Assembly: GCF_018326425.1 (NCBI RefSeq) | Contig: NZ_AP024601.1 | Span: forward strand, 284,501-348,500 | DNA length: 64,000 nucleotides | Direction: 5' to 3' | Source: Polycladomyces abyssicola | GTDB lineage: Bacteria; Bacillota; Bacilli; Thermoactinomycetales; JIR-001 | In this document: piece after piece, positions 5,084 to 25,152 of the stretch | Layout of the letters: the number at the start of each line of letters is the position of its first letter | Numbering within the stretch: position 1 is the first letter of the stretch | Notes under the pieces: model-generated | The model's database searches: none | The model's input: only the letters and a program-made list of their open reading frames with translations | Told to the model about the DNA's origin: nothing | Program-made: the position numbers and the translations under genes

Positions 5084-6115
5084 TTACGCCCCGATATATT
5101 TGGCCACGACAGAGCGTGCCATCGACGGATCTTGCGTTCCTTGGACCAAAATGCGTCCGTCCGGGAAAATGACCAATCGGTAAGGATCAATATCTGCCCG
5201 CAAAAGAAAGCGATTTTTTTCCACCCGTCCGAGCGGTGCCAGCCGTTTCGCCAATTGTTCCAGATCCATCGGTTGGGGCGCGGATGGGGAGATCTGGACG
5301 GTGTCTCTCCCGCAAAGGGAAACGGCTTGAGGTTCTTTGTCCGCTGGGTCCAGAAACTCCCATATGCCTTGGCCGCATGTCGGACAATCGGGCTTTCTAT
5401 TTTGGCTTACTTCCATCGCGGTATCGTGATTGTACCAGCATTCAAAATGTCGTAGCCGCGTATCCAAGGCTTGTTCGTCACGAACCAACAATTTGAGCGC
5501 TTCCACCGCTTGGTGGGCGGCCACGATGTGGATGATCGGACCGATCACACCGGCCGTATCGCATGTCTCCGTCGTTCCCGGAGCGGGAGGATTCGGAAAC
5601 AGACAGCGGAGACAAGGAGTGATCCCCGGCCTGATTGTGAACACCATGCCCCGGGAGCTGACCGCGCCGCCGTATATCCACGGGATGCCGTGTTTGACAC
5701 TGACATCGTTGATCAAAAATCGTACGGAGAAATTGTCCGTACCGTCCAAAATCAGGTCGACGTCGGACAGAAGCGATTCGGCGTTTTGCCATGTTAAGTC
5801 GGTGACGTGTGCTTCCAGGCGGACCCCCGAGTTGATGGCACGTAGTTTCCGTTCTGCCGCCACTGCTTTGGGAAGGCCTTCTCTCGCATCCGATTCGTCA
5901 TACAGCATTTGGCGTTGCAGGTTGCTGGGTTCGACGAAGTCGCGGTCAATCAATCGGACGAATCCGACTCCTGCACGAACCATATGATTGGCCAGCGCGG
6001 AGCCGAGAGCACCCATGCCGACAATGGCGATGCGGGCTTGTTGGAGTTTCCTTTGGCCTTTTTCTCCAATGGGAGCGAACAGGATTTGTCTGGAATATCG
6101 TACATGATCTGTCAC
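5084..6115 (-). CDS. ThiF/MoeB-family adenylyltransferase
   Basis: This E1-like enzyme activates the C-terminal Gly-Gly of a sulfur carrier protein with ATP, either ThiS (thiamine) or MoaD (molybdopterin). The 343-residue product starts VTDHVRYSRQILF, with the nucleotide motif GMGALGS at 33-39, the SNLQRQ arginine finger region, DGTDNF, and zinc-ligand pairs CLRC and CPTC. The last 90 residues form the extra C-terminal domain seen in Bacillales ThiF proteins instead of a rhodanese domain. The GTG start at 6115 is fixed by GGAAGGAG, which lies across the end of the upstream gene. Directly downstream of moaD-moaE, it probably serves molybdopterin synthesis, possibly also thiamine. Confidence 0.85.
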   Translation of the reverse strand: MTDHVRYSRQILFAPIGEKGQRKLQQARIAIVGMGALGSALANHMVRAGVGFVRLIDRDFVEPSNLQRQMLYDESDAREGLPKAVAAERKLRAINSGVRLEAHVTDLTWQNAESLLSDVDLILDGTDNFSVRFLINDVSVKHGIPWIYGGAVSSRGMVFTIRPGITPCLRCLFPNPPAPGTTETCDTAGVIGPIIHIVAAHQAVEALKLLVRDEQALDTRLRHFECWYNHDTAMEVSQNRKPDCPTCGQGIWEFLDPADKEPQAVSLCGRDTVQISPSAPQPMDLEQLAKRLAPLGRVEKNRFLLRADIDPYRLVIFPDGRILVQGTQDPSMARSVVAKYIGA

Positions 6116-14072: not shown

Positions 14073-14147
14073 TCCTCAGTAGCTCAATGGTAGAGCGCCC
14101 GGCTGTTAACCGGTAGGTTGCAGGTTCGAGTCCTGCCTGAGGAGCCA
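14073..14147 (+). tRNA. tRNA-Asn (GUU)
   Basis: The acceptor pair TCCTCAG/CTGAGGA, anticodon GTT at 14105-14107 with A37, the T-loop GGTTCGAGTCC and an encoded CCA are all present. It is an ANN decoder and so a substrate of the t6A enzymes encoded just downstream of the array. Confidence 0.95.
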
Positions 14148-14156
14148 TCTTTTCCT

Positions 14157-14249
14157 GGAGAGATACTCAAGTGGCCGAAGAGGACGGTTTGCTAAACCGT
14201 TAGGGGGTCAAATGACCCCGCGCGGGTTCGAATCCCGCTCTCTCCGCCA
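14157..14249 (+). tRNA. tRNA-Ser (GCU)
   Basis: The acceptor begins GGAGAGA and ends TCTCTCC-G-CCA. The anticodon loop contains GCT, and a long variable arm (GGGGGTCAAATGACCCC) marks it as a class II tRNA for AGY codons. Confidence 0.95.
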
Positions 14250-14288
14250 GAAGGCCTTTAAAGTGGTCGAGCCCATAAAATGTTACGT

Positions 14289-14365
14289 GGCCCGTTGGTG
14301 AAGTGGTTTAACACACCAGCCTTTCACGCTGGCATGCAGGGGTTCGAATCCCCTACGGGTCACCA
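14289..14365 (+). tRNA. tRNA-Glu (UUC)
   Basis: The acceptor GGCCCGT pairs with ACGGGTC, the anticodon is TTC in CCTTTCACG, and ACCA is encoded. Confidence 0.95.
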
Positions 14366-14369
14366 ATAT

Positions 14370-14444
14370 GGACGGTTAGCTCAGCGGGAGAGCACCTGCT
14401 TCACACGCAGGGGGTCGGCGGTTCGATCCCGTCACCGTCCACCA
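14370..14444 (+). tRNA. tRNA-Val (CAC)
   Basis: The acceptor GGACGGT pairs with ACCGTCC. The anticodon loop TTCACAC gives CAC, the GUG-specific isoacceptor. CCA is encoded. Confidence 0.9.
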
Positions 14445-14472
14445 AATACGGGGAATACTCCCCTTCCTACGC

Positions 14473-14549
14473 GGAGCTGTGGTGAAGTTGGAGTTCACGC
14501 CGGCCTGTCACGCCGGAGGTCGCGGGTTCGAGTCCCGTCAGCTCCGCCA
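14473..14549 (+). tRNA. tRNA-Asp (GUC)
   Basis: The acceptor GGAGCTG pairs with CAGCTCC, the discriminator is G, CCA is encoded, and the anticodon is GTC in GGCCTGTCACGCC. Confidence 0.95.
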
Positions 14550-14556
14550 TTATTAT

Positions 14557-14633
14557 GGCGGCCATGGCGAAGTGGTTAACGCACCGGATTGTGGCTCCGG
14601 CATTCGTGGGTTCGATTCCCACTGGTCGCCCCA
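14557..14633 (+). tRNA. tRNA-His (GUG)
   Basis: The anticodon is GTG. The extra 5' G (position -1, at 14557) pairs with discriminator C73, as expected for tRNA-His. CCA is encoded. Confidence 0.95.
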
Positions 14634-14639
14634 TGATAC

Positions 14640-14714
14640 TGGGGAGTAGCCAAGTGGTAAGGCAACGGACTTTGACTCCGTGATGCGTAGGTTCGATCCC
14701 TACCTCCCCAGCCA
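14640..14714 (+). tRNA. tRNA-Gln (UUG)
   Basis: The acceptor TGGGGAG pairs with CTCCCCA, the anticodon is TTG in GACTTTGACTC, and GCCA ends the gene. Confidence 0.95.
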
Positions 14715-14718
14715 TTGC

Positions 14719-14794
14719 GAGCCATTAGCTCAGTTGGTAGAGCACCTGACTTTTAATCAGGGTGTCCCAGGTTCGAGTCCTGGATGGCTCACCA
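14719..14794 (+). tRNA. tRNA-Lys (UUU)
   Basis: The acceptor GAGCCAT pairs with ATGGCTC, the anticodon is TTT with A37, and ACCA is encoded. It is a t6A substrate type. Confidence 0.95.
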
Positions 14795-14886
14795 CATCAT
14801 CATAGCAATATTAATCAGCGGCGGTTTTTCCCACATAGGCCGGTTGGTGCCGGTTGGGTGACGGCCGGTCGCCTCCGGATCTCTAT

Positions 14887-14970
14887 GCGGGTGTGGCGGA
14901 ATTGGCAGACGCACTAGACTTAGGATCTAGCGCCTCTGGCGTGGGGGTTCGAGTCCCTCCACCCGCACCA
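14887..14970 (+). tRNA. tRNA-Leu (UAG)
   Basis: This is a class II tRNA with acceptor GCGGGTG/CACCCGC, anticodon TAG in ACTTAGGA and a variable arm GCGCCTCTGGCGT. A 92-bp spacer separates it from the tRNA-Lys gene. Confidence 0.95.
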
Positions 14971-14985
14971 AGCGGATGAAAACAT

Positions 14986-15072
14986 GCGGTCGTGGTGGAA
15001 CTGGCAGACACGCTATCTTGAGGGGGTAGTGGCCGTAAGGCCGTGCGAGTTCGAGTCTCGCCGACCGCACCA
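14986..15072 (+). tRNA. tRNA-Leu (GAG)
   Basis: This is a class II tRNA with acceptor GCGGTCG/CGACCGC, anticodon GAG in TCTTGAGGG and variable arm TGGCCGTAAGGCCGT. CCA is encoded. Confidence 0.95.
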
Positions 15073-15127
15073 GTTTTGAAAAATCGCCAATTGATACAGC
15101 CAATTGATACAATAGATACTACTGTTC

Positions 15128-15204
<77 letters not shown>

Positions 15205-15233
15205 TTCCCTTACTCAGGACAAGTTGATGAAAT

Positions 15234-15307
15234 GCGGGTGTAGTTCAGTGGTAGAACACCGGCCTTCCAAGCCGGATGCGTGGGTTCGATTCCCATCACC
15301 CGCTCCA
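15234..15307 (+). tRNA. tRNA-Gly (UCC)
   Basis: The acceptor GCGGGTG pairs with CACCCGC, the anticodon is TCC in GCCTTCCAAGC, and TCCA ends the gene. It is the last tRNA of the array. Confidence 0.95.
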
Positions 15308-19162: not shown

Positions 19163-19695
19163 CACGAAATCACGAGTGGTTTGACCACTTTGTCAGCAGT
19201 TTCTTTCAGAAACTGCCGCCTAAAAGCCCACAGTTTTAATCGTGGGATGAAAGGCGGCGTTGTTCGGAATCCCCCTTGTGGGGATGGCAAGAGCAACTTG
19301 TGTACGTATGAGCGGTGCTCATCCCACTGGTAGTGGGTTCCGTTCCTTGAAAACGTTATGGTATGGGGTTCCAGCGGCGAACCAGTCTCTCCCGCTGGGT
19401 AAAACCATAAGAGTGAAAAAAGGAACTAGGACACTGGTAATACCACGGGCACTTCCGTTGGTCGCTGGTGTCCCGCCCATGCGGGTACATACAGCCCAGC
19501 TGTAGAACGGCATGGGATGGGCTGATGAGACAGCCCTGAACTTGGGAGTTGTCCGAAACAGAAATGGACTGAGGACGTGAACTCCCCAAGAATCCTACGG
19601 CGACCATAGGGAGTGCCTGTGGTACTTCAGCCGTGTGGAGTCTCAACCCTGTTATCTGATAACAGGGTTTTTGGGTCCATCACAACATCCCCGTT
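19163..19695. mobile_element. IS200/IS605-like relic with omega-RNA-like sequence, copy 1
   Basis: No transposase gene is present. A hairpin CAGTTTCT/AGAAACTG (19198-19216) precedes an imperfect palindrome CCCAC...GTGGG with the ending GGGATGAAAGGCGGC that is common at IS605 ends. From 19207 to 19440 the sequence is nearly the same as 41745-42016, apart from insertions in the latter. The 3' part contains ACGGCGACCATAGGGAGTGC, then TGTGGTACTTC, before CCGTGTGGAG at 19638. This layout suits a TnpB-element end with its guide-RNA scaffold, but that identity is inference. A short inverted repeat (CCCTGTTATC/GATAACAGGG, 19648-19667) may terminate transcription. Confidence 0.45.
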
Positions 19696-20520
19696 TTATC
19701 CGATGAAGCGTATAAGCTCGCGATGAAATTTCTCCAACTCTTCGTAGAACAATCCATGACCACTGTATTGAAAGGGGATGAGTTCCGATTCCCTGATACC
19801 GGCGTGCATCAATTTGGCAAATGAGAATGGGCAGACTTTGTCCTGTACACCATGGAAAATTGCGGTTGGTACATTGATTTTAGAAAAATCTCTCCCTAAA
19901 TCCTCATCTCGAAGGGAAACTGCACACATCGCCGATGCATGGCCAGACGCCTCTATTCCCAATCCGTGGAACCAGTTTTTGAAACTCTCCGTTACATAAC
20001 GTGCGAAAAATATGTCCCCAACGCCATCCAGCATTTTGGGGCGATCGGTATAGGTAGCGACCATTAGCTTACTCCATGACCGTTCCCAACGTTTCATTTC
20101 CTCTTTTGTTAGTCCATACGGTATTCCGGGGCGTCTGGTGAAGCCCGCAGCTCCTATGAGGGCTAGTTTAGAGACTTTATGCCCTGCATGCCGAGCCATG
20201 TACCGGATGGCAATAGCTCCTCCCATCGAATGTGCAGCAAAGGTGACATCCTCTAACTGTAGAGTATCAATCACGATACGGACATCATCTGCCAATCGGT
20301 TGTACGAATATCCTTCCCAGGGACGATCCGACTTCCCGAATCCGCGCAAATCAATCCCAATACAACGATAGCCCATTTTGGGGAGTTGGTTGAATTGATA
20401 TTCAAACATTTTATGGTTAAGCGGCCATCCGTGTATAAAAAGGATTGGTTTTCCATGCCCAGGATCGCAATCCTCGACGAAGATATTTACGTTTCGTTCA
20501 ACTGGAATGTAGTAACCCAT
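19696..20520 (-). CDS. Alpha/beta-fold hydrolase, haloperoxidase/esterase type
   Basis: This 274-residue protein has the oxyanion-side motif ILFIHGWPLNH, the nucleophile elbow FAAHSMGGA, an acidic residue in HGVQDKVCP and the catalytic His in QYSGHGLFYEE. The RGFGKSDRPWEGY loop and N-terminal strand suggest the non-haem haloperoxidase-like group, whose natural role is usually ester or lactone hydrolysis. The start at 20520 is supported by TAGGAGGGG; the frame runs further upstream without support. It is a single gene whose promoter region overlaps repeat copy D. Codon use is more AT-rich than in the tsa operon. Confidence 0.82.
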   Translation of the reverse strand: MGYYIPVERNVNIFVEDCDPGHGKPILFIHGWPLNHKMFEYQFNQLPKMGYRCIGIDLRGFGKSDRPWEGYSYNRLADDVRIVIDTLQLEDVTFAAHSMGGAIAIRYMARHAGHKVSKLALIGAAGFTRRPGIPYGLTKEEMKRWERSWSKLMVATYTDRPKMLDGVGDIFFARYVTESFKNWFHGLGIEASGHASAMCAVSLRDEDLGRDFSKINVPTAIFHGVQDKVCPFSFAKLMHAGIRESELIPFQYSGHGLFYEELEKFHRELIRFIG

Positions 20521-20538
20521 CTGTACCCCTCCTAAACT

Positions 20539-20590
20539 CGAGAGAAGGGTGGCCAAAATCCGGGCGACTTTGAGCGTGAGCATTACAAAT
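20539..20590 (+). repeat. Dispersed ~70-bp intergenic repeat, copy D (short)
   Basis: GAGAGAAGGGTGGCCAAAAT followed by CCGGGCGACTTTGAGCGTGA matches copy B over most of its first half. It sits just upstream of the alpha/beta hydrolase start on the opposite strand. Confidence 0.6.
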
Positions 20591-20720
20591 CTTGTCGATA
20601 TCTCTGTAATCCTTATCGCCCCGCACATCTTCCATCATATGCTCGAAGTTTACCGAAAAGAATCCAAGGTAATACCGGAATCACGGTAGATCATTCTCCA
20701 GGACACAGTTCCTGAAAACG

Positions 20721-20749
20721 AAAAACCACCCACAATGAGGGTGGTTTTT
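20721..20749 (-). terminator. Terminator downstream of the OsmC gene
   Basis: AAAAACCACCC and GGGTGGTTTTT form an 11-bp stem with T tracts on both strands, so it may work in both directions. Confidence 0.8.
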
Positions 20750-20758
20750 CCGTTGGGA

Positions 20759-21202
20759 TTATGACGTCTTCTGCCCCGTCACCGCCACGGTAGGCACGCC
20801 CTGTAAGGTGTCCTTCACTGGGCAGACCCGCTCTACGTGTTCGATCAATGCTTGGACTTTTTCCGGGTCGGACGGGGAGTCAATTTGAATATGGTAGCGG
20901 ACTTCCAGGAAGCCAGGGCGGACATCGGCTTTTTCCATGAAACCGTCGGGATCCAAATCGCCCTCCACATGCACTTGGCTTCCTTTCAGTTCTACTCCGT
21001 GCTGTTTGGCAAACAGAGAGACCAGCACATTAATGCATCCGCCCAGGGCAGCCAGGATGAGTTCCACCGGATTGGGCCCTTGATCCGTTCCGCCTAAAGC
21101 CGGGGGCTCGTCGATGATCACCTGTTTGCCGTTGATCTCAGCCACCGAGCGCACTCCCTCACCGGACCATTTTACATCAGACACAAAAGTAATCTTAGGC
21201 AT
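20759..21202 (-). CDS. OsmC-family peroxiredoxin-like protein
   Basis: This 147-residue OsmC/Ohr-fold protein is expected to reduce organic hydroperoxides with two cysteines. The first lies in AALGGCINVLV and the second in VERVCPVKDTL, in the positions usual for the YhfA/OsmC branch. The start at 21202 follows GGGAGG at good spacing. It is a single gene with its own terminator, divergent from the riboswitch-controlled transporter. The subgroup (Ohr or general OsmC) is not settled from sequence. Confidence 0.85.
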   Translation of the reverse strand: MPKITFVSDVKWSGEGVRSVAEINGKQVIIDEPPALGGTDQGPNPVELILAALGGCINVLVSLFAKQHGVELKGSQVHVEGDLDPDGFMEKADVRPGFLEVRYHIQIDSPSDPEKVQALIEHVERVCPVKDTLQGVPTVAVTGQKTS

Positions 21203-21365
21203 GAAATCAAACCTCCCAACGGATAAATTAGTATAAGAATAATCCATTAATTCCGATTTGACAAGTATGAATTATGATAAAAAGTGTGATTGAAAAAATA
21301 CACCCTGACAAAGCCGAAGGGTGGTAGATTGTGGGAGGGTTATTCCTGATGACAAAAACTCCGAG

Positions 21366-21394
21366 TTGCGATTCTCTTTTTCATTCGATACAAT
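21366..21394 (+). promoter_or_regulatory. Promoter of the riboswitch-transporter transcript
   Basis: TTGCGA (-35) and TACAAT (-10) are separated by 17 bp upstream of the aptamer. The same promoter with TTGCTA occurs in the second copy. Confidence 0.7.
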
Positions 21395-21437
21395 AAATAG
21401 AGATTTTGATCGAGATTTTGACAATTGCATATTGAAA

Positions 21438-21608
21438 GGGAAAAGGTGGAGTGGTTCGTCCACTCCCGAAGAGGGAAGCCGGTGAAAATCCGGCGCGGTC
21501 CCGCCACTGTGAATGGGGAGCGATGCCGCGGTCACTGTCGCCAGTGTGCGATGGGAAGGCCCGGTATGGTTTCGCGATGATCCATGAGCCAGGAGACCTG
21601 CCTTTTCC
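21438..21608 (+). promoter_or_regulatory. Cobalamin riboswitch 1
   Basis: The core GCCGGTGAAAATCCGGCGCG, the following GTCCCGCCACTGTGA and the B12-box-type GAGCCAGGAGACCTGCC are the hallmarks of the adenosylcobalamin aptamer. GGAAAAGG at the 5' end pairs with CCTTTTCC at the 3' end (P1). A terminator lies about 130 bp downstream, before the NiCoT gene, so ligand binding should lower cobalt uptake. Confidence 0.93.
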
Positions 21609-21735
21609 AACAACACCGTTGACCTACGAGGATAGGGAGGTGTTTGATGACGCCGCATGCCGTCAAATTGGTGTCGATTGGCCTGGCATAGGCCGTGAGT
21701 CTTCTTGTGTACTTGTATGTGGATACGTGATCATC

Positions 21736-21771
21736 AAACACTTCTCATAACGGGAAGTGTTTTTATTTTTT
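21736..21771 (+). terminator. Riboswitch 1 expression-platform terminator
   Basis: AACACTTC and GAAGTGTT form a stem followed by TTTATTTTTT, between the aptamer and the transporter gene. Confidence 0.8.
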
Positions 21772-21836
21772 CAGTATTTGGGGATGGAAGGGTTAAGGTC
21801 ACAATTTTGAATGAATATTCTGTAAGGAGAGAAAAG

Positions 21837-22673
21837 ATGGAAAACGTATCTCTTCTCATACTGGTATTTACTTTAGGTCTTCGTCACGGTTTGGATGCTG
21901 ATCATTTAGCTTGTATTGATGGTTTGGCTCGCTACAATTGGCGTAAAGGAAGTTCGATTGCGCGTTGGGTCGGTACCTTATTCTCCTTTGGACACGGTTT
22001 AGTAGTAGCCAGTATTGGGATTATTCTAGGAAACATCAGTCAGAACTTTCGGTTACCGGATTACGTCGACCTGTTTGTGACATGGTTTTCTATTTTGTCC
22101 CTATTCCTGATTGGAACATTAAACATCAATAATCTGTTAAAGACGCGATTAGGGAATCAGGACGAATATCGACCTCAAGGTATCAAAGGAAAACTCATTC
22201 CGAAAAAATTACAGGAAACAAGCAACCCACTTCTCATTATATTGATTGGAGGACTGTTTGCTTTAGCATCAGAGACCGTTAGTCAAGCGTCCGTCTGGGT
22301 GTTGGCAGCGAACAACAACGCGAACTATATGCCTTACATCTTGGGAATCACATTTATGATGGGGATGATGATCACAGATACCATTGATTCTTTGATTACC
22401 AATAAAATACTTCGCCAATCCAGTAAACTTGGGCAATCTGCCTCCAGAGTGATGGGTTGGATCATTGTGTTTTTAGCATATGGAGTCTCTTTCTACGAAG
22501 CCTTTACATTCTTTAACCCTTGGGCAGAATTGGATTTTGAAGTGGTGGGGATCATCATTTTTTTGCTCTTCCTTTTCATTTTTGCATGGGTATCCTATCG
22601 AACAAGAGTTGATCGTCCTTTTGTAGGGTTACATGTATCAGGTGAAGAAAACAGCAACTCATGGAGAAAGTGA
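21837..22673 (+). CDS. NiCoT-family nickel/cobalt transporter
   Basis: This 278-residue membrane protein has about seven or eight hydrophobic helices. The family signature in helix II, H-x4-D-H, is present as RHGLDADHLACIDG, and LFSFGHGLVVASIG and LFALASETVSQASVW supply the other conserved segments. Such permeases bring Co2+ or Ni2+ across the cell membrane; the cobalamin riboswitch upstream points to cobalt. The ATG at 21837 follows AAGGAGAG. Its base composition is clearly more AT-rich than the cbi genes downstream, which suggests separate acquisition. It is enclosed between the two repeat units. Confidence 0.92.
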   Translation: MENVSLLILVFTLGLRHGLDADHLACIDGLARYNWRKGSSIARWVGTLFSFGHGLVVASIGIILGNISQNFRLPDYVDLFVTWFSILSLFLIGTLNINNLLKTRLGNQDEYRPQGIKGKLIPKKLQETSNPLLIILIGGLFALASETVSQASVWVLAANNNANYMPYILGITFMMGMMITDTIDSLITNKILRQSSKLGQSASRVMGWIIVFLAYGVSFYEAFTFFNPWAELDFEVVGIIIFLLFLFIFAWVSYRTRVDRPFVGLHVSGEENSNSWRK

Positions 22674-22733
22674 TGGCCTAGACGAAAAACGTATATGTGG
22701 AGGTTGCACGTTGATAACTACAGAAGCCAACAC

Positions 22734-23026
22734 CAAAAACTCCGAGTTGCTATTCTCTTTTTCATTCGATACAATAAAGAGAGATTTTGATCGAGATTTT
22801 GACAATTGCATATTGAAAGGGAAAAGGTGGAGTGGTTCGCCCACTCCCGAAGAGGGAAGCCGGTGAAAATCCGGCGCGGTCCCGCCACTGTGAATGGGGA
22901 GCGATACTGCGGTCACTGTCGCCAGTGTGCGATGGGAAGGCCCTGTATGGTTTCGCGATGATCCATGAGCCAGGAGACCTGCCTTTTCCAACAACACCGT
23001 TGACCTACGAGGATAGGGAGGTGTTT
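22734..23026 (+). repeat. Direct repeat unit 2: promoter plus cobalamin riboswitch
   Basis: This is the second copy of the 293-bp unit, upstream of the cbi operon. The promoter reads TTGCTA (22747-22752), 17 bp, TACAAT (22770-22775). Confidence 0.9.
22819..22989 (+). promoter_or_regulatory. Cobalamin riboswitch 2
   Basis: The same aptamer core and B12-box elements are present as in copy 1, with changes at only a few positions. It is followed by a different expression platform ending in a terminator at 23152, so it should repress the whole cbi operon when adenosylcobalamin is abundant. Confidence 0.93.
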
Positions 23027-23526
23027 AGATCGGGCTGGACGACTGTCCGCTGAATGAAAGCAGCCCGCCTGGGGAATCGTGTACCTTTTTCAGGCCCTCG
23101 GACGGGAGTCGCTGCATTTAGCTAGGTTAAGGGATAACAACTGCGCGATTTAAGCACTTCCATTTTGGAAGTGCTTTTATTTTTTTTGGTATAGTAGGCA
23201 GTTTATGATTCGTGTCGTGGCGGAGCATTTTTCTGGGGCACTCTTATGGGATGCGAGGCAATTGAGATGGGGGTTGTAGGTTGGAAGCGGACAGGTTTTC
23301 CAAATGGGTGACATCTCACGTTCCAAATCACTCATGGATCAGATGATGAGGGCGATTTGGCAGCAGATGCTGGAGCCGATCTGTCATGCCGTCCCATGTG
23401 GAAAAAGCGGTGGCGTGGATTCGTCCGTTTTACGAACGACATGGATCGTCGGTGCCGATGTGTTCCGGCAAACGCAACACGGAGAGGGAACAACCATCCA
23501 TCACGGCAAGATAGGAGGAAGCGGAA
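23027..23526. other. Leader of the cbi operon with a possible decayed cbiW
   Basis: After the riboswitch and terminator about 340 bp precede cbiH60. In B. megaterium this slot holds the small gene cbiW. Here an ORF at 23304-23534 (76 codons, no good RBS) and protein-like runs in another frame (for example VEKAVAWIRPFYERHGSSVP) suggest a degraded or very divergent gene. I cannot call it. Confidence 0.3.
23152..23188 (+). terminator. Riboswitch 2 expression-platform terminator
   Basis: AAGCACTTCC and GGAAGTGCTT form a stem with loop ATTT, followed by TTATTTTTTTT. Confidence 0.85.
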
Positions 23527-25152
23527 ATGAGTGAGAAAGGCCGCGGCAAGTTGTACGTGGTGGGCTTCGGTCCGGGTCATTTCGACCACATGACGCACCG
23601 GGCGCGGGAAGCACTCAGCGACAGCGATGTGATCGTCGGGTACAACACCTATGTCGACATCATCCGGGATTTGTTGGACAATCAGGAGATCGTGCAAACC
23701 GGCATGACGGAAGAAGTCAGTCGGGCACAGACGGCGGTCGAGCTGGCCGAGAGCGGAAAAAAGGTGGCCGTGATTTCCAGCGGAGATGCAGGCGTGTACG
23801 GCATGGCCGGACTGGTGTACGAGGTGTTGGTGGAAAAAGGAAGGCATCGGGGCGAAGGTGTGGAAGTGGAGGTGATCCCCGGGGTATCAGCAATCAATTC
23901 CTGCGCGGCACTTTTGGGGTCGCCCGTGATGCACGATGCTTGCATGATCAGTCTGAGTGACCATCTCACCCCCTGGGAAACGATCGCCCGCCGGATTGAA
24001 GCGGCCGCAGCAGCCGATTTTGTCATCGCTTTGTACAACCCCAAAAGTGGACGGCGTACCCGCCAGATCGTGGAGACTCAACGCATCCTGCTCCAGTATC
24101 GGTCACCGGACACACCTGTCGGATTGGTGAAAAGCGCCTATCGGGAACGGCAACACGTGGTGATCACGAAGCTGGGTGAGATGCTGGGACATGAGATTGG
24201 CATGTTGACTACGGTGTTGATCGGCAATTCCACCACTTTTGTTCATCACGGTTTGATGATCACACCGCGCGGCTATCAGCGAAAATATACGCTTACCCAA
24301 AAGGAACAGGCCTTGAAGCCACATGAACGCCTGCGGACGGACACCGAGCCGTGGTCTCTCAACGCGCAAACAGAGCAATTGGACAAACCCCGAACCAAAG
24401 AGGCGAAACATCCGGTTGCATGGGCCGAGGAAGCGTTGGCACTTCTTCAGGTCGCAGGCAAGGTTCCTGTCACCGGTACTCCTCCCACTGCGGTGCCCAA
24501 TGTCACCCCGGTTTTGGAAGTGGCCGTCTCTTCCGGCGTCGCCGAAAAAAAGTGGACGCCGAACCAAATGGCTGCACTGGCATCGCTGGCGGGAGACAAA
24601 GGGGAGATCACGTATACACCCGATCATCAAATGATCCTGCGGATCCCGACCGATGATCCCGACTCAGTGGTTCGTCGCCTGACGGATGCGGGATGGTCGG
24701 TTCACCCCGTCGGCGATGTGGTGCAGGTAAAAGCATGCGATTTTTGCGATGGCGATAAAGGTGAGTCGATTCCCCACGCCGAGGAGTTGACTCGCCGGTT
24801 GGGCGGGATGAACATCCCCAAGGAATTGAAAATCGGCTTCAACGGCTGTGCGATGGCCTGCTATGGTGCGGTGACGGAAGATATCGGGATTGTCTACCGA
24901 CGCGGCACGTACGATTTGTTTCTGGGCGGTAAAAGGATCGGCCGCAATGCCCATCCCGCCCAGCGGGTGGCGGAAGGACTCTCACCGGAAGAGATGTTGG
25001 TGGCGGTGGAAAACGTCGTGCGGGAATATGCGGAAAAAGGGCACCCCAACGAGCGTTTCCACAAATTTTTCAAACGTGTCCAAGAGGTGAACGGGTTCCG
25101 GTACCGGGAACAACCTCAACCGGTAGCGGTGGATACCGTCTGCGGGGACTGA
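23527..25152 (+). CDS. cbiH60: CbiH60: cobalt-precorrin-3 C17-methyltransferase with a redox domain
   Basis: This 541-residue protein joins two modules. Residues 1-260 are the SAM-dependent tetrapyrrole methylase (LYVVGFGPGHFDHMT, VAVISSGDAGVYGMAG, EVIPGVSAINSCAALLG) that methylates C17 and contracts the ring. After a linker near 270-345 comes a C-terminal sulfite/nitrite-reductase-like domain with Cys residues in KACDFCDGDKG and GFNGCAMACYG, which fit a 4Fe-4S cluster. The same long form is known as CbiH60 in B. megaterium. ATAGGAGGAAG precedes the ATG. It is the first clear gene of the riboswitch-controlled cbi operon. Confidence 0.92.
   Translation: MSEKGRGKLYVVGFGPGHFDHMTHRAREALSDSDVIVGYNTYVDIIRDLLDNQEIVQTGMTEEVSRAQTAVELAESGKKVAVISSGDAGVYGMAGLVYEVLVEKGRHRGEGVEVEVIPGVSAINSCAALLGSPVMHDACMISLSDHLTPWETIARRIEAAAAADFVIALYNPKSGRRTRQIVETQRILLQYRSPDTPVGLVKSAYRERQHVVITKLGEMLGHEIGMLTTVLIGNSTTFVHHGLMITPRGYQRKYTLTQKEQALKPHERLRTDTEPWSLNAQTEQLDKPRTKEAKHPVAWAEEALALLQVAGKVPVTGTPPTAVPNVTPVLEVAVSSGVAEKKWTPNQMAALASLAGDKGEITYTPDHQMILRIPTDDPDSVVRRLTDAGWSVHPVGDVVQVKACDFCDGDKGESIPHAEELTRRLGGMNIPKELKIGFNGCAMACYGAVTEDIGIVYRRGTYDLFLGGKRIGRNAHPAQRVAEGLSPEEMLVAVENVVREYAEKGHPNERFHKFFKRVQEVNGFRYREQPQPVAVDTVCGD

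Follow-up and report, generated by a model that had tools for sequence, protein, structure and literature searches.

A probable natural riboswitch chimera before a putatively acquired cobalt transporter gene in Polycladomyces abyssicola

The window analyzed here is a stretch of 64,000 nt from the 3.2 Mb chromosome of Polycladomyces abyssicola (G000:C1:284501-348500). A repeat finder recovers a single direct-repeat family, two units (A and B) of 293 nt at a spacing of 1381 (Table 1). An earlier note, made from the sequence letters, had described two near-identical promoter and aptamer units with differing terminators after them and an AT-richer NiCoT gene between them, and this description holds. 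Aligned, the units show six substitutions (21370, 21398, 21459, 21525, 21527, and 21563) and no indels; 98% identity across 293 nt far exceeds what chance would produce. The promoter pattern is identical in both (TTGC[G/T]A-17-TACAAT), and both match RF00174 over its full length (1-189/189), with 112.9 and 112.7 bits against a gathering score of 31.5 (E about 2e-27). The kissing complement that characterizes RF00174 is present by sequence, with GGTC in L5 (21497-21500), GACC in L13 (21621-21624), and AACACC/GGTGTT as P13. Past base 293 the A and B leaders are dissimilar, each with a separate intrinsic terminator, and alignment of the A and B spacers gives a z of about 0. The stretch between the units (21646-22733) has 41.3% G+C, compared with 52.9% for the window, which puts it in the lowest 0.3% of equal-length window stretches. 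The cbi operon behind unit B extends to about 36245. A transposon was considered and rejected: within 20000-25000 no inverted-repeat pair flanks the insert, NiCoT is the sole ORF between the units, and there is no transposase.

Table 1. Features of the locus and of the related ribonucleotide-reductase (RNR) riboswitches; positions are those of the window unless a locus is given
Feature	Position	Strand	Detail
Unit A	21353..21645	+	promoter, cobalamin aptamer 21427-21619, P13
Unit A promoter, sigma-A-like	21366-21394	+	-35 TTGCGA 21366-21371; -10 TACAAT 21389-21394
Unit A P13		+	5' arm AACACC 21612-21617; loop TTGACC 21619-21624; 3' arm within GGAGGTGTTT 21636-21645
Putative chimera crossover interval	21610..21645	+	36 nt without a site separating cbi-type from RNR-type riboswitches
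Unit A expression platform, RNR riboswitch type	21646..21775	+	antiterminator extension and terminator
Unit A antiterminator extension GATGA	21646-21650	+	pairs with TCATCAAACACTTC 21731-21744
Unit A intrinsic terminator	21736-21771	+	stem 21736-21762 and T-run
NicO/NiCoT-type cobalt (nickel) transporter gene	CDS 21837..22673	+	AT-rich, apparently horizontally acquired; PF03824 E=6e-13
Unit B	22734..23026	+	promoter 22747-22775, cobalamin aptamer 22808-23000, P13; its leader corresponds to that of the single G001 unit
Unit B expression platform	23027..23187	+	antiterminator extension AGATC pairs with GATTTAAGCACTTCC 23147-23161
Unit B intrinsic terminator	23152-23187	+	
Debris of CbtB-HEAT-AAA cobalt-transporter module	23238..23520	+	frameshifted HEAT and AAA ATPase gene fragments
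cbiH60-like first gene of the cbi operon	23527..25152	+	tetrapyrrole methylase and NIR_SIR domains; behind unit B, 500-base leader
RNR riboswitch aptamers	L004:1501-1777 = G000:C1:2467109-2467385; L044:1501-1820; L042:1501-1737		P. abyssicola; G001; G002

Cobalt transporters belong to cobalamin regulons (PMC3766115), and transcripts from either unit here would begin with a class-I cobalamin riboswitch that attenuates transcription, placing the NiCoT cobalt importer under the control of unit A and the cbi operon under that of unit B. The final ten bases of either unit have alternative partners: the upstream AACACC of P13 or, when extended about five bases past the unit, the 5' arm of the terminator. 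The extension GATGA of A pairs with TCATC and the extension AGATC of B with GATTT, and both duplexes are complete with G-U allowed; in the congener G002, a substitution of GATGA to GGTGA preserves the pairing as a G-U change. The antiterminator duplexes have energies of -24.8 (A) and -23.3 (B) kcal/mol and the terminators of -13.2 and -16.5, and these structures are maintained in the orthologues. Each terminator, though different from the other, fits its own antiterminator, and antiterminator and intrinsic terminator are mutually exclusive by sequence, as in transcriptional OFF switches. Both leaders are accordingly classed as predicted B12-OFF transcription attenuators with P13, antiterminator, and terminator intact. 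With adenosylcobalamin bound, P13 would form, its loop kissing GGTC of L5, and the downstream terminator would fold, turning the genes off; with the ligand absent, the 3' arm of P13 and about five more bases would pair with the terminator 5' arm, leaving the genes on. A ligand response of this kind is likely for both leaders, and P13/antiterminator logic of an equal kind has been demonstrated by mutation in the Priestia megaterium metE riboswitch (PMC10653944). We propose that separate B12 switches on NiCoT and the cbi operon would allow cobalt uptake and corrin synthesis to increase together at low B12. No terminator-like site was found on the + strand between NiCoT and unit B, and transcripts from promoter A may therefore enter riboswitch B.

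The genus is represented by three genomes (P. abyssicola, G001, and G002), whose branching is near a trichotomy. G002 shows the same A-NiCoT-B order, with the upstream end of A shortened and with A and B leaders that are orthologous, copy by copy, to those of P. abyssicola. An additional 5.4 kb lies between NiCoT and unit B in G002 (L068:7900-13380), encoding two GDPD-like enzymes, a methyltransferase, and a SHOCT protein. G001 has a single unit with a B-type leader and without a corresponding NiCoT. Within the unit, the A and B copies of P. abyssicola and G002, four in all, show 6-12 pairwise differences from one another and 15-20 from the G001 unit; by this measure, the duplication predates the split of P. 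abyssicola from G002 and postdates the split from G001. The earlier note had seen either a recent duplication that put the transporter under B12 control or an insertion between copies. NiCoT does stand behind a B12 riboswitch, and an apparently foreign gene does lie between unit copies, but the duplication is not recent: G002 shares the arrangement, with orthologous leaders and a NiCoT 89% identical to that of P. abyssicola. The same note had reasoned that two riboswitches in all close relatives would mark the duplication as old, and the relatives are divided on this point, with two units in G002 and one in G001.

The NiCoT product scores 49.1 bits against PF03824 (cut-off 27.7) and falls under the NCBIfam cut-offs of nico (TIGR00802) and NicT; cobalt is the substrate preferred from genomic context, and cobalt transport is its likely function. 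All three Polycladomyces genomes hold a second, partial NicO match. In phylogenetic placement, the sister of this NiCoT is that of Thermoflavimicrobium dichotomicum, from another family of the same order (support 100/100), where the gene occupies another genomic place without a riboswitch in front; in Laceyella, NiCoT is the last gene in the cbi operon. Third-codon identity between P. abyssicola and T. dichotomicum is 74.5% for NiCoT, as against 34-43% for cbiH60, cbiX, cbiJ, and cbiC. Between P. abyssicola and G002, NiCoT (83.8%) and cbiH60 (83.9%) have diverged equally. The close kinship with T. dichotomicum, together with this equal divergence, suggests that NiCoT changed lineage before P. 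abyssicola and G002 split. On these comparisons NiCoT is evidently a horizontally acquired gene, and it would have entered from outside, perhaps with the A platform, on the branch leading to P. abyssicola and G002.

The gain of NiCoT has a counterpart behind unit B. Downstream of its single riboswitch, G001 encodes two small unnamed proteins, then CbtB (PF09489, 40 bits), a HEAT protein, and a LonB-like AAA ATPase, with cbiH60 coming next; T. dichotomicum carries the same CbtB module in the same place, between a single riboswitch and cbiH60. The 300 bases before cbiH60 in P. abyssicola and G002 contain collinear HEAT and ATPase fragments with break points in common, and neither CbtB nor CbiM was found elsewhere in these two genomes. 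The distribution of module and debris indicates that the module is ancestral and disappeared in the lineage that acquired NiCoT, and the G001 layout is the ancestral-type state. The older module would have decayed on the same branch that gained NiCoT, one cobalt importer apparently being replaced by another. At the CbtB module loci L067:9095-12519 and L070:1012-4123, the unnamed small proteins measure 176/218 and 175/168 aa and belong to no Pfam or NCBIfam family, and the ATPase resembles archaeal LonB (481 bits, just below the cut-off). The small proteins, HEAT protein, and ATPase are conserved across two families and are candidate CbtB partners.

A search with the A leader in 42 genomes of the order recovered, besides A of G002, only the leaders of RNR alpha-subunit riboswitches, in all three Polycladomyces genomes; matches were confined to the genus, and no donor with an RNR-type riboswitch before NiCoT was found among these genomes. 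The E of 2e-22 between the A leader and an RNR leader was set aside as a measure of likeness, since 45 nt of aptamer common to both leaders had inflated it, and the likeness tests of A against the RNR platform exclude aptamer bases. At diagnostic sites before 21610, A agrees with B, the cbi riboswitch, at 30 of 31; between 21646 and 21771 it agrees with the RNR riboswitch at 24 of 34 and with B at 5 of 34. The earlier note had not remarked on this kinship of the A platform with another riboswitch. Spacer-only alignments of A with RNR stand above shuffles in P. abyssicola (z 2.8-4.2), whereas those of A with B and of RNR with B do not. A covariance model of aptamer-free RNR leaders, searched genome-wide, places the A leader next after its training set (E 0.0018 in G002 and 0.064 in P. 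abyssicola) and never recovers B. Antiterminator pairing energies likewise split the leaders, A and RNR sharing one pairing set and B having another. Outside the terminator, the likeness of the A and RNR platforms is modest, at 53-56 of 86-88 columns with gaps included, and since pairing with GGTGTTT is required of every one of these terminators, part of the likeness could be convergent. These tests are individually moderate; taken together, they make it highly probable that unit A is a chimera. It would be a natural one, the cbi promoter and aptamer having been joined within the conserved P13 block to an RNR-type platform, presumably by recombination. In the RNR riboswitches themselves, a peripheral aptamer insert varies strongly in length among congeners, with aptamer spans of 277 (P. 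abyssicola), 320 (G001), and 237 nt (G002).

The explanation that we consider probable as a whole combines B12-OFF switches on NiCoT and the cbi operon, a chimeric unit A, a foreign NiCoT, and the decay of the CbtB module. The repeats, the pairing potential, the chimeric site pattern, the foreign NiCoT, and the CbtB debris can all be read from the DNA itself; the order of events is a reconstruction. A variant of this explanation, with somewhat less than an even chance of being correct, replaces a single crossover by two steps: an RNR-type riboswitch and NiCoT were first acquired whole, and gene conversion from B then overwrote the promoter and aptamer. Divergence between the A and RNR platforms far exceeds that between the A and B aptamers, the A platform and NiCoT are both low in G+C, and the promoter-proximal site 21413 groups by genome, as conversion predicts. 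Informative sites are few, however, and 21525 and 21527 still group by copy, leaving the site evidence on conversion between A and B in conflict (two sites by copy, one by genome). Because the platforms have diverged further and the A leader is lower in G+C, we lean toward a platform imported together with NiCoT.

It is also conceivable, though unlikely, that the history was one of plain duplication, in which unit A and its leader were copied from B. The A leader would then have diverged past recognition while promoter and aptamer remained under selection, and its likeness to RNR would be convergent on terminator pairing. Every platform does have to pair with the same GGAGGTGTTT, and the likeness of A to RNR is weak outside the terminator. 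But the B leaders remain 86-88% identical across the three species, and the spacer between antiterminator and terminator in A matches RNR leaders above shuffles, as that of B does not. Moreover, the RNR-leader model matches A and not B, and the A antiterminator suits RNR terminators better than B terminators. A chimeric origin of unit A accounts for the locus with greater probability.

The single-riboswitch state that the earlier note had proposed to look for in relatives does occur, in G001, but with the CbtB module intact and a different upstream flank, which indicates that it is not a product of recombination between A and B. The note's further idea of a "ready switch", a recent mobile duplication in which recombination between the repeats removes NiCoT from some members of the population, is unsupported and very improbable as a main reading, for although repeats of 293 bp with 98% identity would be long and similar enough to recombine homologously and one congener has a single unit, the order is conserved in G002 with orthologous leaders, persisting through about 10% DNA divergence, and the single state of G001 keeps the older layout.

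Control of cobalt transporters (NiCoT, CbtAB, CbiMNQO) by RF00174 is an established setting, which this locus resembles in its class-I aptamer and predicted B12-repressed cobalt transporter. B12 riboswitches stand directly before NiCoT in loci of Tumebacillus, Aneurinibacillus, Neobacillus massiliamazoniensis, and Priestia koreensis. At the present locus, by comparison, promoter and aptamer match those of the adjacent cbi riboswitch almost completely, and the platform is of another riboswitch's type. A separate two-switch layout occurs in Aneurinibacillus terranovensis, where NiCoT and cbi are divergent with one B12 riboswitch each (L016:3810-3990 on the - strand and 5779-5966 on the + strand). 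Tandem riboswitches (PMC9481103) likewise have two AdoCbl riboswitches on one strand, and a promoter A transcript could pass both gates; however, tandem riboswitches place two aptamers in one leader with no gene between, whereas here NiCoT and a second promoter intervene and separate transcription units are served. In the lysine riboswitch study (PMC5584792), a riboswitch is duplicated with a transporter gene and the regulated gene is horizontally transferred; the units described there are whole riboswitch-gene units, whereas aptamer and platform here appear to differ in parentage. A limited literature search found no natural instance in which riboswitches had exchanged platforms or undergone gene conversion with each other, which is weak evidence.

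The function suggested for this locus is ordinary (B12-repressed cobalt uptake beside B12 synthesis), but its make-up would be unusual and its history informative. In the laboratory, riboswitches can be given new combinations of aptamer and expression platform. In corrinoid riboswitches, the kissing loop has been said to make a simple swap of aptamer and platform unlikely to work (PMC10653944). The P. megaterium metE riboswitch of that study shares the L5-L13 kissing loop with the units described here but differs in platform sequence, and its chimeras were engineered, whereas the present one would be natural. If real, a natural chimera with its crossover in the shared P13 block would show evolution's way round the kissing-loop constraint, and how a horizontally acquired transporter comes under vitamin control. 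We give about even odds to the broader proposition that bacteria create new riboswitches through recombination within the conserved P13 block, keeping the kissing loop and half of the antiterminator while swapping the terminator, so that an imported gene would gain vitamin control in one step, with this locus as a natural case. The locus would also record a swap of cobalt importers, from CbtB module to NiCoT, at one regulated site, with the old debris remaining.

The region upstream of unit A (window 19355-21250, with a hydrolase and OsmC) is different in all three Polycladomyces genomes and appears indel-prone. Further upstream, twelve consecutive tRNA genes occupy window positions 14073-15304.
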